From: Symmachiella dynata | GTDB taxonomy: Bacteria; Planctomycetota; Planctomycetia; Planctomycetales; Planctomycetaceae | Length of the DNA stretch: 64,000 nt | Direction of reading: 5' to 3' | NCBI RefSeq assembly: GCF_007747995.1 | Contig: NZ_CP036276.1 | Coordinates: 1,541,001-1,605,000 of the forward strand | Shown here: positions 60,355 to 64,000 of the stretch, in pieces | Layout of the letters: every line of letters begins with the position of its first letter | How positions within the stretch are numbered: the stretch's first letter is position 1 | Made by a program: the position numbers and the translations under genes | The notes under the pieces: generated by a model | What the model saw: only the letters and a program-made list of their open reading frames with translations | Database searches by the model: none | Told to the model about the DNA's origin: nothing

Positions 60355-60924
60355 CTAAGCAATTAACATTTCTGCGGGCGGCGGTTCGATGCCGAAGTCT
60401 TCGATGGTCAACAGCGATCTCAGCGGCAAGTCGCGTTTGGCAAAATTTGCCGCTCCACCTTCCATGCGGTCGACAATGGCGACGACCTGCACGACTTTAC
60501 AGCCGAATTCTTCAATGCGGTCGACGGCCAACAGCGAACTGCCACCGGTAGTCACCACGTCGTCGACGATCACCACCCGCGCCCCGGGTTGCACCGGGCC
60601 TTCGATAAATTTGTTGGTGCCGTGTCCTTTGGCTTCTTTGCGCACCAAAAACCCCTGCACATCCTGGCCCCGCTCGGCAGCGACGGTGATTGTGCCGCCG
60701 ATGATCGGATCGGCCCCGATCGACATCCCGCCAATCGCGTCGTACTCGACATCGGCGAGTAGATCGAGCAAACCTTCGCTGACCTGTCGCAGTCCCTCGG
60801 AGTGCAACGTGATTTGTTTGCCGTCTAGGTAATAGCTGGCTGTTTTTCCGGAAACCAGTTTGAACTCGCCGAATTTCAACGCGCGTTCTGTGAAAAGTTC
60901 AATCAAGCGATCTCGATCGTACAT
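60355..60924 (-). CDS. pyrE: orotate phosphoribosyltransferase
   Basis: The PRPP-binding motif RVVIVDDVVTTGGSSLLAV is in the middle of the protein. FKLVSGKTASYYLDGKQIT near the N-terminus matches the orotate-binding region. The reaction forms orotidine 5'-phosphate in pyrimidine synthesis. The start MYDRDRL is used; 10 further codons upstream are open. It lies about 50 bp upstream of pgi on the same strand. Confidence 0.94.
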   Translation of the reverse strand: MYDRDRLIELFTERALKFGEFKLVSGKTASYYLDGKQITLHSEGLRQVSEGLLDLLADVEYDAIGGMSIGADPIIGGTITVAAERGQDVQGFLVRKEAKGHGTNKFIEGPVQPGARVVIVDDVVTTGGSSLLAVDRIEEFGCKVVQVVAIVDRMEGGAANFAKRDLPLRSLLTIEDFGIEPPPAEMLIA

Positions 60925-61266
60925 GGTTGCGTCTTTCTCTAAAACTAGTTTCAAAACCTTTTGCTGCGTCTCGCGTGTCTCACAATCTGGAGGTCAAAAC
61001 CAAGTACAACCAAGTTTCGAAACGGGTTCTTAAGAGCCCCCGGCCCTGAATGTGAAGAATCGTAGATGGCAGCGAATAGTGCGACCGGCACCCGGGCTGC
61101 GTCGCGGTTAGATCATACGCGCCCTGCACCGAATTTCAACGCTGCCCGCGTCCCCGCCTCGTCCCCGCGGCAAACTGAATCGGTATGTGTGCCCAGATAC
61201 GAGAAAAAGACGTGAAGGCGGGTGATTTCCTTCACGTCTATGCAGGGTGGCTTGGGGGAATGCGGG
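60925..61266. other. intergenic region with terminator
   Basis: Apart from a strong - strand terminator (61203-61238) nothing is recognised here. The region contains the likely promoter of pyrE. Confidence 0.5.
61203..61238 (-). terminator. rho-independent terminator of the propeller gene
   Basis: On the - strand GACGTGAAGG and CCTTCACGTC form a perfect 10-bp stem with a 10-nt loop, followed by TTTTT. It begins about 28 bases after the stop of the beta-propeller gene. Confidence 0.88.
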
Positions 61267-62523
61267 CTATTTCCAGCGATACATCGACTGTTCATTCAAC
61301 GCCCGAATGAAGAGCTGGTCACCGCAAACCGCAAGATGAGCCCAAGTCGGTTCGTCGCTGATGTGCCGTTTGTCTATTAACTCGAATTGCTGCGGATTGG
61401 CGCGGATTAAGAGCAGATCACCCCGTTCGTCCAATGCCAAAATCCGGTCGCCTTGTGCGACCATCGACCAGTACTTGCCGAACGGCTTGGTCACCCAGGC
61501 CTCTTGCCCTGTTTCGATATTAATACAGGCAAAGCGTTTGTTACGCAGGTGCAAATAGATGTGGCCGTCAATCACCACAGGCGATGACATGTAGCCTTGA
61601 ACTTTATTCCGCCAGCGTTGTTCGGCTGTAGCAGCGCCGTTGTTGAGGGTATACAAATACGAACCGCCCCCGTAGCTGCTGGTGAACACCGAATTGCCAA
61701 TCACGGTCGGCGTTAAGATATTCATGCCCCGAAATGCGGGGATTTCTTGCGACCACAGTTCCTCTCCCGAATCGAGTGCGACGCCAGCCAACTTCTTGCG
61801 CGTTTGTACCAAGAGTTGTCTTTGACCGTTGATCGTTCGGATAACCGGCGAGGAGAATGCGCTGCCGTACATGCCTCCGCCATCGCGCAGACCATGCCAG
61901 ATGATCTTACCGCTGTACTTATCTAATTTGACCAGCCCGGCGCCTGCTTGAATGTAGACGAAGTCTCCGTCGATCAATGGAGAGCAGACACAACCGAAGG
62001 CGGGGAGTTTTGCGCCGGTTGTCTGTGCAAAATCGACGCGCCAGATTTCCTGTCCGTCAGCGCCGTTTAAGCAAACCAACACATCACGGATTCCCGCTAC
62101 ATACAATCGTTCCCCATCAAAAGCGGGTGTCGAACGAATCCAATCGCCGTTGGACTTGGCGAAAAATGGTACGTTGATGGCTCCGGGCCAGGAAATCTTC
62201 CACAGTTCTTTCCCGGACTGCCGATCCAAGGCGCGCACGACTTCGGTTTCTTTGTCGACGGTTTCGGTCACAAACACCCGGTCGGCTGCTACGATCGGCC
62301 CAGAGTAACTTGGCCCGAGCGGAACGCTCCAGACTTTTTGCAGATGCTCCACGTCCAAGGCTGGCGGCCATGCCGGTCCCTCGACCTGGGAGTCTCGCTG
62401 CGGACCGCGCCATTGCAGCCAAGTGGCGATGGGTGATTCTTCGGATCGCGCTGCGGCGGGCAGCGCGGAGATGATCAGAATGAGACTAAATCCACTCAGA
62501 CAGGAGTGACAATTGAATCGCAT
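61267..62523 (-). CDS. PQQ-like beta-propeller repeat protein, secreted
   Basis: An N-terminal signal peptide (about residues 1-28) is followed by seven-blade propeller repeats; blades end in W and share the pattern ALDRQSGKELWKIS, CLNGADGQEIWRVD, KLDKYSGKIIWHG and CINIETGQEAWVTK. This fold is shared by BamB and PQQ dehydrogenases, but no catalytic dehydrogenase residues are seen. The protein is probably periplasmic or extracellular. A terminator follows. Confidence 0.9.
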   Translation of the reverse strand: MRFNCHSCLSGFSLILIISALPAAARSEESPIATWLQWRGPQRDSQVEGPAWPPALDVEHLQKVWSVPLGPSYSGPIVAADRVFVTETVDKETEVVRALDRQSGKELWKISWPGAINVPFFAKSNGDWIRSTPAFDGERLYVAGIRDVLVCLNGADGQEIWRVDFAQTTGAKLPAFGCVCSPLIDGDFVYIQAGAGLVKLDKYSGKIIWHGLRDGGGMYGSAFSSPVIRTINGQRQLLVQTRKKLAGVALDSGEELWSQEIPAFRGMNILTPTVIGNSVFTSSYGGGSYLYTLNNGAATAEQRWRNKVQGYMSSPVVIDGHIYLHLRNKRFACINIETGQEAWVTKPFGKYWSMVAQGDRILALDERGDLLLIRANPQQFELIDKRHISDEPTWAHLAVCGDQLFIRALNEQSMYRWK

Positions 62524-62647: not shown

Positions 62648-63532
62648 TCAAGCCGGTCTGAGGGTCGATGCGAACGATTCCAAATGCCCCAGCGTGTCAC
62701 AGAAGGCATGGGCCTTCATTTGTTTTCGCAGCTCTTCGGTCATCGCCCGTCCACCTATTGCCAAAGCCGTTCCGTTGGCCTGTGCTGTCGCATAGAGTTG
62801 TTCGACATCCAGCAAGAATTGCGATCTGTCTGCAATGTGAGATGCACTAATCCAAAATAACTTCGGCTGCTTTTGCTGGATTGCATGCACCAACGTCTCG
62901 GCCGGGAGATTGTTGCCCAGCGTCTCGGCATTCCAGCCATCTTCGCGGAGCACCAACTCGACCAAGGTCGTCGAGAGTGAATAATGATCGCCCGCTAAGG
63001 CGCCGCCGATTGCCAGAGGGGCGTCTGGATCCACCGCAGGCAATGTCGCCCGCAACTCGTGCAAGACACGCAGGCACATTTCGCAAGAATGGCGCTCCTG
63101 GTAAACCTCGACTTCGCCACAGTCCCACTTCTCACCAATCTCGCCAAACGCCGGTGCGATCACTACGTCGCCGATGCTGCTGAACTTGTGATTCGCCAGG
63201 ACGAGATCAAAGACGACCTGTCGACAGGCTTGTTCATCGTCTGCGACCAACGATTTGATCATTTGTCGCTGCGCCGCATTCAACGTCCTGGGGCCCTGTC
63301 CCGTTGAGGGAGGCAAGCCCAGCACAGCTGGATCGGCGATGTTGAGTCCAGAAGTTTTAATAAATTCCAGAACATTGCTGATCGCCAGCTTGCGATGCCC
63401 GCCGGCAGTGCGAGTTGTTTCGATCAGACCGCGGTCGCACCAGCGTTTTAACGAGGATTCGCTCACGCCGATTGCGCGTGCAACCTGTTTTGGTGAAACC
63501 AGTTCGCTCATTGTATTCACTTCCCGTGCCAT
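62648..63532 (-). CDS. MerR-type regulator with B12-binding domains (CarH/LitR-like)
   Basis: The N-terminal 70 residues are a MerR winged helix (SPKQVARAIGVSESSLKRWCDRG, TAGGHRKL). A helical B12-binding-2 domain follows with WDCGEVEVYQERHS: Trp136, Val143 and Glu146 fit the CarH pattern WxxxxxxVxxEH, but the His is displaced by one (Arg147-His148). The Rossmann-like B12 domain has GDHYSLS where DxHxxG would give the lower cobalt ligand, so His is again shifted. A strong ribosome site GGGAGGA precedes ATG 63532. It probably represses its own gene and the divergent sigma gene, sensing B12 or light if it still binds cobalamin. Confidence 0.85.
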   Translation of the reverse strand: MAREVNTMSELVSPKQVARAIGVSESSLKRWCDRGLIETTRTAGGHRKLAISNVLEFIKTSGLNIADPAVLGLPPSTGQGPRTLNAAQRQMIKSLVADDEQACRQVVFDLVLANHKFSSIGDVVIAPAFGEIGEKWDCGEVEVYQERHSCEMCLRVLHELRATLPAVDPDAPLAIGGALAGDHYSLSTTLVELVLREDGWNAETLGNNLPAETLVHAIQQKQPKLFWISASHIADRSQFLLDVEQLYATAQANGTALAIGGRAMTEELRKQMKAHAFCDTLGHLESFASTLRPA

Positions 63533-63551: not shown

Positions 63552-63580
63552 ATTATAGCCGGGCAGGCGGTTGGGGCGAA
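63552..63580 (-). promoter_or_regulatory. promoter of the MerR/B12 regulator
   Basis: On the - strand TATAAT (63557-63552) is preceded, 17 bp further up, by TTCGCC (63580-63575), a weak -35. The first tandem box (63578-63595) overlaps that -35, consistent with self-regulation. Confidence 0.5.
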
Positions 63581-63595
63581 CGAATTGCACGTTTT
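63578..63595. promoter_or_regulatory. tandem 9-bp operator-like boxes, pair 1
   Basis: GAACGAATT and GCACGTTTT are contiguous and resemble the boxes at 63641-63658 and 63704-63721. The pair overlaps the regulator's -35 region. Confidence 0.5.
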
Positions 63596-63618
63596 TTTGG
63601 CGAAGCGACCTGTTGAAT

Positions 63619-63636
63619 TAACGTTTTTAATGGTTT
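63619..63636. promoter_or_regulatory. tandem 9-bp operator-like boxes, pair 2 (weak)
   Basis: TAACGTTTT and TAATGGTTT are contiguous, and the second is the weakest match. The pair is 4 bp from the next. Confidence 0.35.
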
Positions 63637-63640
63637 AGGT

Positions 63641-63658
63641 GAACGATTTGGACGATTT
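63641..63658. promoter_or_regulatory. tandem 9-bp operator-like boxes, pair 3
   Basis: GAACGATTT and GGACGATTT differ by one base and are contiguous. They end 5 bp before the -35 of the sigma gene promoter. Confidence 0.6.
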
Positions 63659-63663
63659 AAGGG

Positions 63664-63692
63664 TTGACGCCGGGCGGTCGACGGCCTAGAGT
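63664..63692 (+). promoter_or_regulatory. sigma70-type promoter of the sigma factor gene
   Basis: TTGACG (63664-63669), a 17-bp spacer and TAGAGT (63687-63692) give a good vegetative promoter. The start would be near 63699. It is bracketed by box pairs 3 and 4. Confidence 0.6.
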
Positions 63693-63703
63693 GGGGTTGA
63701 GAT

Positions 63704-63721
63704 GAACGTTTTGAACGTTTT
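63704..63721. promoter_or_regulatory. tandem 9-bp operator-like boxes, pair 4
   Basis: GAACGTTTT is repeated exactly and contiguously just after the predicted start point, a position that would block transcription when occupied. Confidence 0.65.
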
Positions 63722-63758
63722 TTGTTTCTGGGGTAAACCGCGAGAAAGGCGAATTCTC

Positions 63759-64000
63759 ATGTCCATGGTATTGGTTGCAAGTCGAGCGAAAACTGCACAG
63801 CGGTCGAGTCAATCCGTCAGCCCTGAAGAGCGCGATGAGGTGCTGCAGCTTCTGCAGGAAGAGATTGCCTATATCCATAACGGGGAATTCGAGCATCTGG
63901 ATATGGACACTGTTGAACAATCGGTGCATCACGCGGGAATTCACCGCCAGCAGCCGTCCTCTGGGGCAACCGTCCCGGATGGGCTTCCCGCTTATTTGGC
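63759..64000 (+). CDS. probable sigma-70 family sigma factor, N-terminal part (runs off window)
   Basis: The frame from ATG 63759 stays open to the end of the window (80 residues). After a polar N-terminus the sequence reads SPEERDEVLQLLQEEIAYIHNG..., then PDGLPAYLA at the edge. In planctomycete sigma-70 family factors of this size I recall GLPAYLA leading into region 1.2 (LY-VPLLT--QE), which would lie just outside. That identification is from memory and cannot be confirmed in the window. It is divergent from the MerR/B12 regulator and shares its operator region. Confidence 0.55.
   Translation, partial: MSMVLVASRAKTAQRSSQSVSPEERDEVLQLLQEEIAYIHNGEFEHLDMDTVEQSVHHAGIHRQQPSSGATVPDGLPAYL

Follow-up and report, generated by a model that had tools for sequence, protein, structure and literature searches.

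Several light- and stress-responsive systems resemble parts of the locus described here. For CarH, SignatureFinder lists W131, E141, H142 and H177 as key for cobalamin (PMC11796333), and the CarH operator is built of 11-bp repeats, nAnnTnnACAn (PMC8156234). The class II LitR protein PmlR2 is B12-independent, acts with photolyase, UfaM and FAD-oxidoreductase genes, and represses from two sites, one of which covers the -35 and the other of which follows the start site (PMC9758184). In Streptomyces, a B12 MerR protein, LitR, governs the sigma factor LitS and reportedly promotes the transcription of litS when cells are in light (PMC12705666). The 9-bp direct repeat to which each BldC protomer binds has an AT-rich block followed by a C-G pair (PMC5859096). 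The RpoE regulon of Rhodobacter sphaeroides includes cfaS, phrA, RSP_1091/1090, rpoHII and the fasciclin gene RSP_1409 (PMC7074977), and in Vibrio cholerae a MerR-like protein and ChrR jointly mediate the blue-light response (PMC5241685). A search of the literature outside subscription papers found no paper on the operator or the planctomycete circuit described below, and the nearest planctomycete paper, in its available portion, does not treat either (PMC11588811).

Organization of the locus and the adjacent sigma factor

The window, that is, the whole stretch of 64,000 nucleotides analyzed, covers positions 1541001-1605000 of a 7.77-Mb single-contig genome. It contains a regulator gene and a sigma factor gene that are divergent and 170-230 bp apart, and the 227-bp gap between them holds the boxes investigated here. 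The genes are as follows.

62648..63532, minus strand: regulator gene, 294 aa, with a BldC-like/MerR HTH, B12-binding_2 and a B12-binding-like domain (domain search, profile, model)
63760..64000, plus strand, running past the window to 64715 (window numbering): sigma-70 family gene, probable start ATG 63760
61267..62523, minus strand: PQQ-type beta-propeller gene that lies downstream of the regulator and recurs beside it in relatives

The original prediction that the divergent gene encodes a sigma factor held when the frame was read past position 64000, as it contains both sigma region 2 (E 6e-18) and region 4 (E 3e-13). Among the best 25 of 47 NCBIfam matches, the general sigma-70 family model was the only one above its cut-off, and none of the RpoD, RpoS and RpoH models reached theirs; judged from its sequence, the factor is RpoD/RpoH-like. 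When the sigma factor of locus L151 (genome G015) was used as a query, the window gene came first in this genome with 243 bits, followed by two paralogues with 202 and 189 bits. Two related sigma factors of this genome lie at G000:C1:6775979 and 6592870, where the strict operator pattern defined below has no match.

Other neighbors of the regulator recur as well. In 16 of 80 relatives' loci, a PQQ-type beta-propeller gene lies on the 3' side of the regulator, no more than 400 bp away. An orotate-phosphoribosyltransferase-like gene lies near the window regulator (60355-60954, minus strand), and in class family f2 such a gene is the regulator's divergent neighbor behind the same operator (L173-L175, L177, L178, L181, L182 and L185-L187).

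Candidate operators and promoters in the intergenic region

The intergenic region contains the following elements.

63578..63595, plus strand: operator A, two 9-bp boxes, regulator-proximal, GAACGAATT-GCACGTTTT; overlaps the weak regulator -35; unchanged in the same-genus genome G001
63619..63636, plus strand: degenerate pair, probably no operator, TAACGTTTT-TAATGGTTT; core lost in G001
63641..63658, plus strand: operator B, a pair of 9-bp boxes immediately before the -35 of the sigma gene, GAACGATTT-GGACGATTT
63704..63721, plus strand: operator C, a pair of 9-bp boxes immediately after the -10 of the sigma gene, GAACGTTTT-GAACGTTTT
63664..63692, plus strand: sigma-gene promoter TTGACG-N17-TAGAGT (promoter scan)
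63552..63557, minus strand: TATAAT, probable -10 of the regulator gene (read from the sequence)

The original prediction had counted three to four tandem pairs in this gap. The pairs at 63578, 63641 and 63704 are spaced exactly 63 bp apart, and an independent repeat search returned copies at 63569, 63632 and 63695, again with spacings of 63 and 63 bp. In G001, pairs 1 and 4 are unchanged and pair 3 has one change, whereas pair 2, at 63619, lacks its ACG core. Pair 2 was therefore dropped, leaving three operators, not four. The claim that pairs 3 and 4 flank a good promoter was confirmed: the scan found TTGACG-N17-TAGAGT once, against 0.2 expected, between the pairs at 63641 and 63704 and with a normal 17-bp spacer. 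An alternative in-frame ATG of the sigma gene is present at 63702, at operator C, and 63760 is the likelier start. The predicted overlap of pair 1 with the regulator -35 stands if this element is placed 17 bp upstream of TATAAT, at 63575-63580, but the hexamer there, TTCGCC, is weak, with three of six positions agreeing with the consensus, and the TATAAT-based promoter was not among the output of the promoter scan.

To place these boxes in the whole genome, the pattern KRACGNNTTKRACGNNTT was counted, which gave five exact matches in 7.77 Mb, two of them in this gap. With at most one mismatch there were 87 matches genome-wide, including four in the 227-bp gap, versus 91 for the reversed-pattern control; the loose pattern is thus not rare in the genome, but its cluster in this gap is. 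A three-mismatch search within the window alone was at chance level (3 found versus 2.75 expected). Two of the three exact sites elsewhere in the genome lie within long ORFs, and the third lies ~90 bp before a fasciclin gene. Seven other matched loci of this genome were opened, and they comprised the fasciclin one, five sites in long ORFs and one site of unclear nature (L139). The COG2907/CFA operon and the photolyase gene of this genome were searched and carry no operator, and among singlet-oxygen-type targets only the sigma and fasciclin genes carry it here. The original prediction had proposed to see whether photolyase, carotenoid or B12 genes bear the box; in this genome the photolyase gene does not, and a fasciclin gene was found to carry one.

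Conservation of the operator across the class

Taken by themselves, the chance-level search within the window and the one-mismatch count that equals its control could be read as chance AT-rich direct repeats. The strict pattern GRACGWWTTGRACGWWTT was searched in 248 genomes of the class with the reversed pattern as a control, and it gave 102 matches in 83 genomes versus 3 for the control, counts that ignore shared ancestry, so that p-values overstate, since the genomes are related and not independent. The 102 matches correspond to 93 distinct places, every one of which was fetched and examined. They adjoin a sigma gene (60), a fasciclin gene (11), the regulator with another divergent gene (15), COG2907 with the regulator (2) or something else (5; L167, L195, L198, L207 and L236), which places 88 of the 93 beside a sigma, fasciclin or regulator gene or the COG2907 lipid operon. 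In 10 of the 15 places with another divergent gene, the partner appeared pyrE-like by eye; L187, whose sigma gene lies behind the regulator and not across the operator, was reassigned to this group by hand. A chance origin of the boxes, to which we give practically no weight, is refuted by the class-wide counts, the few recurring neighbor families and the co-occurrence with the regulator.

We then examined 80 regulator loci (990 kb). These contain 39 exact matches, 35 of which fall within -500..+30 of the regulator start and share one orientation, toward the divergent gene. An exact pair at -500..+30 is present in 29 of the 80 loci, a divergent sigma gene within 700 bp in 19, and both in 14; the other 51 loci have no exact upstream pair, and two of these have <100 bp of upstream sequence. 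When at least 16 of 19 positions were required to match, an operator was found in 45 of 78 loci, versus 0.6 in shuffles. The boxes are therefore present in orthologous intergenic regions, as the original prediction implied. The base before the site, which is not in the pattern, is T in 84 of 96 cases, three of them trivial because they lie inside triple arrays. The period is 9, and three tandem boxes occur in L150, L161 and L175.

The regulator was found in 161 of the 248 genomes: in 82 of the 83 operator genomes, versus 79 of the 165 genomes without the operator. The sole operator genome without a regulator match is G146, to which L167 belongs. The strict operator is absent from 79 of the 161 regulator genomes, about half. 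These results bear out the prediction of a regulator-linked direct-repeat operator placed suitably for autoregulation.

Among the regulator matches listed, 33 of the 93 places lie >2 kb from any regulator gene, 17 before a sigma gene (three with photolyase across the operator), 11 before a fasciclin gene and 5 before other genes. L226 is only 2.1 kb from a regulator, which is adjacent at L165, L166 and L235 and just behind the sigma gene at L172. Since 28 of the 33 remote places precede sigma or fasciclin genes, the operator is conserved in trans. These remote places would also suit boxes read by a different regulator, such as a stand-alone BldC-like protein, with the MerR/B12-like gene merely a neighbor. 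We consider this very unlikely, given that the regulator is present in 82 of 83 operator genomes and that G002, a genome of the same genus (96% complete) with no regulator match, has no operator match either.

Beyond the class, 113 further genomes of the phylum (of 119 searched) gave 9 places in 6 genomes, all of which were examined. Five of them precede fasciclin genes, one being shared with a regulator, and two lie between a regulator and a CFA/DUF1365 pair. The places at L260 and L261 look like chance and were set aside.

A CarH-like regulator with an altered sensor pocket

The regulator has the domain set of class I CarH/LitR proteins (MerR-type HTH, B12-binding_2 and B12-binding), with MerR, HTH_17 and B12-binding_2 over their Pfam cut-offs and B12-binding just under its own (30.8 versus 32.1 bits). 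An AlphaFold model based on 54 sequences (mean pLDDT 90.6) matched CtMerR best and then CarH, and CtMerR is the closest solved relative (profile E 8e-56; TM 0.84-0.85 by its length). The HTH is related to that of BldC (E 5e-7 by profile, 6e-4 by single sequence), although the BldC subfamily model gave 32.5 bits versus a cut-off of 77. The Arg of the BldC TRW motif, Arg30 of BldC by our own count, aligns with the invariant Arg30 of the regulator. Since BldC is a 9-bp direct-repeat binder, this resemblance makes the regulator the likely reader, and the boxes are likely the docking site of the adjacent CarH/LitR-like protein, as judged from sequence.

Sensor residues were tallied on 152 regulators (153 minus one contained duplicate). 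W136 and E146 are kept in 151 of the 152, and E146 is followed by R in 116 and by H in 36. The position of the cobalt-ligating His of CarH and CtMerR is Tyr in 145 and His in 2. The window regulator keeps the W and E, has ER instead of EH and GDHY instead of the ligand GxxH (His to Tyr), and lacks the CarH signature (GxxW, EH, GxxH). With Tyr at the ligand position in 145 and ER in 116 of the 152 regulators, the cobalamin reading fails the residue test, and this part of the original prediction is not supported. The sensor keeps the CarH fold, and because the cobalt-ligating His is missing, it probably does not hold cobalamin as its cofactor in the way CarH does.

The protein might nevertheless be a CarH-type adenosylcobalamin photoreceptor that binds B12 without a His ligand and whose complex is broken by light. 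Its fold, which is that of CtMerR and CarH, and the retention of W136 and E146 are compatible with such a function, and the regulators of L161 and L162 keep EH and the GxxH His together with the same operator and sigma target; the His-to-Tyr and EH-to-ER changes speak against it, as does the score of the NCBIfam CarH equivalog model, 42.6 bits versus a cut-off of 400, and we regard it as improbable. We prefer a CarH-like regulator with a different cofactor or signal. Outside the class, the regulators combine EH with another residue in place of the ligand His, Tyr at L255 and L256 and Thr at L257, and have the same operator. Operator and target thus persist while the sensor pocket changes. In a tree of 122 of the 152 regulators (thinned), whose bootstrap had not settled, CtMerR lies on a very long branch, and the tree is compatible with the His of L161 and L162 being either retained or regained.

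Operator arrangement and target genes

A second same-strand operator (at least 15 of 19 positions) is present within 160 bp at 55 of 88 places. The second-operator search gave 90 hits, versus 2.55 in shuffles, and 16 on the opposite strand; opposite-strand partial matches near operators (these 16, and opposite-orientation operators with at least 16 of 19 positions in 10 of 78 loci) also exceed shuffles. The commonest operator-operator spacing is 56-59 bp, versus 63 in the window. Read by eye, the pairs often enclose a GGTTG...TATAA-like promoter, and 11 places have an extra operator located 129-133 bp upstream; if the regulator is adjacent, this is the end nearest to it.

Operator pairs that bracket a promoter point to repression. 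The regulator could instead be an activator, like LitR on litS or classical MerR proteins, and operator B, just upstream of the -35, would be suitably placed for this. The report that LitR promotes litS transcription in light makes the sign of regulation less than certain. However, operator C just after the -10 and the normal 17-bp spacer suit blocking, and PmlR2, a class II LitR whose two sites are similarly arranged, is a repressor. Activation therefore seems to us rather unlikely, and repression is the reading followed below.

The genes beside the operator were labeled by BLAST clusters built around the regulator loci. For the labels sigma, fasciclin, photolyase, amine oxidase, DUF1295 and PQQ propeller, one example each was checked against Pfam, as was the window phosphoribosyltransferase; the names CFA, DUF1365, DUF393, SRPBCC, FolE, pyrE and HemH rest on reading of the sequences. 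In 6 of the 80 loci, the sigma gene is followed by COG2907 in the same orientation, with DUF1365 and CFA synthase next in four of these (L035, L043, L062 and L063). The analyzed flank includes one or more genes of the broader photo-oxidative set in 59 of the 80 loci, and photolyase is the divergent gene at 3 of the 93 operator places. No carotenoid or B12 genes were met among the labeled operator places. The singlet-oxygen core target types (CFA/COG2907/DUF1365, photolyase, fasciclin and alternative sigma) occur across relatives, but not all in one genome. The light-related part of the original prediction is thus supported among relatives as a photo-oxidative gene set.

Further genes were seen in some of these neighborhoods. 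At L244:2667-5404, an operator-bearing fasciclin gene shares its strand with two genes beside it, an SRPBCC gene and a small one that looked PAS-like by eye, and G001 has the same arrangement (L143). Genes for FolE and 6-pyruvoyl-tetrahydropterin synthase lie near the regulators of L104, L105, L110 and L111, and ferrochelatase lies near those of L038, L048 and L051.

Proposed regulatory circuit

From the operator conservation, target set, regulator co-occurrence, promoter bracketing, domain architecture and residue changes observed here, we infer binding, repression, a signal and a sigma cascade. The regulator is quite probably a CarH/LitR-like protein of the BldC type that represses a photo-oxidative-stress regulon and whose cofactor or signal is altered. 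Points against this reading are the regulator genomes that have no strict operator, the regulator loci with no exact upstream pair and the surplus of opposite-strand matches. Its BldC-like winged-helix domains would line up head-to-tail on direct repeats of 9 bp, T-(GRACGWWTT)n, with operator A at the regulator's own promoter. Because operators B and C bracket the sigma promoter, protein bound there would block RNA polymerase. A light or photo-oxidative (singlet-oxygen-like) signal would cause the repressor to release the DNA, allowing expression of the sigma factor and the fasciclin gene and, in relatives, also of the COG2907-DUF1365-CFA operon and photolyase. The sigma factor would then probably drive further protective genes; that it controls the CFA operon and photolyase of this genome is a guess, since neither carries an operator here.

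A broader proposal, which we put forward tentatively, is that Planctomycetes may have rebuilt a singlet-oxygen/light regulon under a one-component repressor. Its B12-fold sensor, with His-to-Tyr and EH-to-ER changes, might sense light or photo-oxidants via another cofactor (heme, bilin, flavin or none) and, through 9-bp arrays of the BldC kind, set off a cascade headed by an alternative, RpoD-like sigma factor. The work defines an operator and a regulon that span the class and can be tested, in a group of bacteria in which the control of stress responses has been little studied. The more distant relatives with CarH residues, L161 and L162, provide a natural case for comparing sensor chemistries while the DNA circuit stays the same.

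Comparison with known systems

CtMerR, the cobalamin photoreceptor of Chloracidobacterium thermophilum (PDB 8jbs/8jbt), has the same HTH type and two-part B12-binding module, but it keeps EH and the ligand His in GDLH, whereas the window protein has ER and GDHY. CarH and class I LitR share with the present system a MerR-family HTH, B12-binding_2 and B12-binding, tandem direct-repeat operators and light-response genes. They differ from it in that the CarH repeat is the 11-bp nAnnTnnACAn and not the 9-bp GRACGWWTT found here, and in that the ligand His is absent here.

The 9-bp period, which is that of BldC and not the 11 bp of CarH, fits a BldC-type head-to-tail array. Streptomyces BldC has a related HTH and binds its 9-bp direct repeats head-to-tail; variable numbers of 9-bp direct repeats, a trait of the BldC family, are also found in the sites here, as known from their sequence. 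BldC, however, is a 68-aa protein with no sensor domain, whereas the regulator has 294 aa and sensor domains, and the BldC consensus, AATTXXXX(C), is not identical to GRACGWWTT. In the present system, DNA binding in the manner of BldC would be joined to a sensor like that of CarH.

The class II LitR proteins of Pseudomonas (PplR/PmlR2) resemble this system in having a B12-independent light regulon (photolyase, UfaM, FolE and FAD oxidoreductase) and two operators around a promoter. They differ in their operator, TGTACA-N12-TGTACA, in having the B12-binding_2 part only, and in working with a separate LOV protein. In Streptomyces coelicolor, LitR, a MerR regulator of the B12 family, controls the sigma factor LitS, on which light-response genes depend; here, too, a sigma gene adjoins the regulator, which may control it. 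LitS belongs to the ECF class, whereas the sigma factor here is RpoD/RpoH-like.

The RpoE-ChrR singlet-oxygen regulon of Rhodobacter sphaeroides has a similar gene set, with CFA synthase, putative cyclopropane fatty-acid proteins, photolyase, fasciclin and an alternative sigma factor. We take RSP_1091/1090 to be COG2907/DUF1365. Control there lies with RpoE, an ECF-class sigma factor, and the anti-sigma factor ChrR, not with a DNA-binding repressor, and the photo-oxidative gene set thus appears here under another controller than in Proteobacteria.
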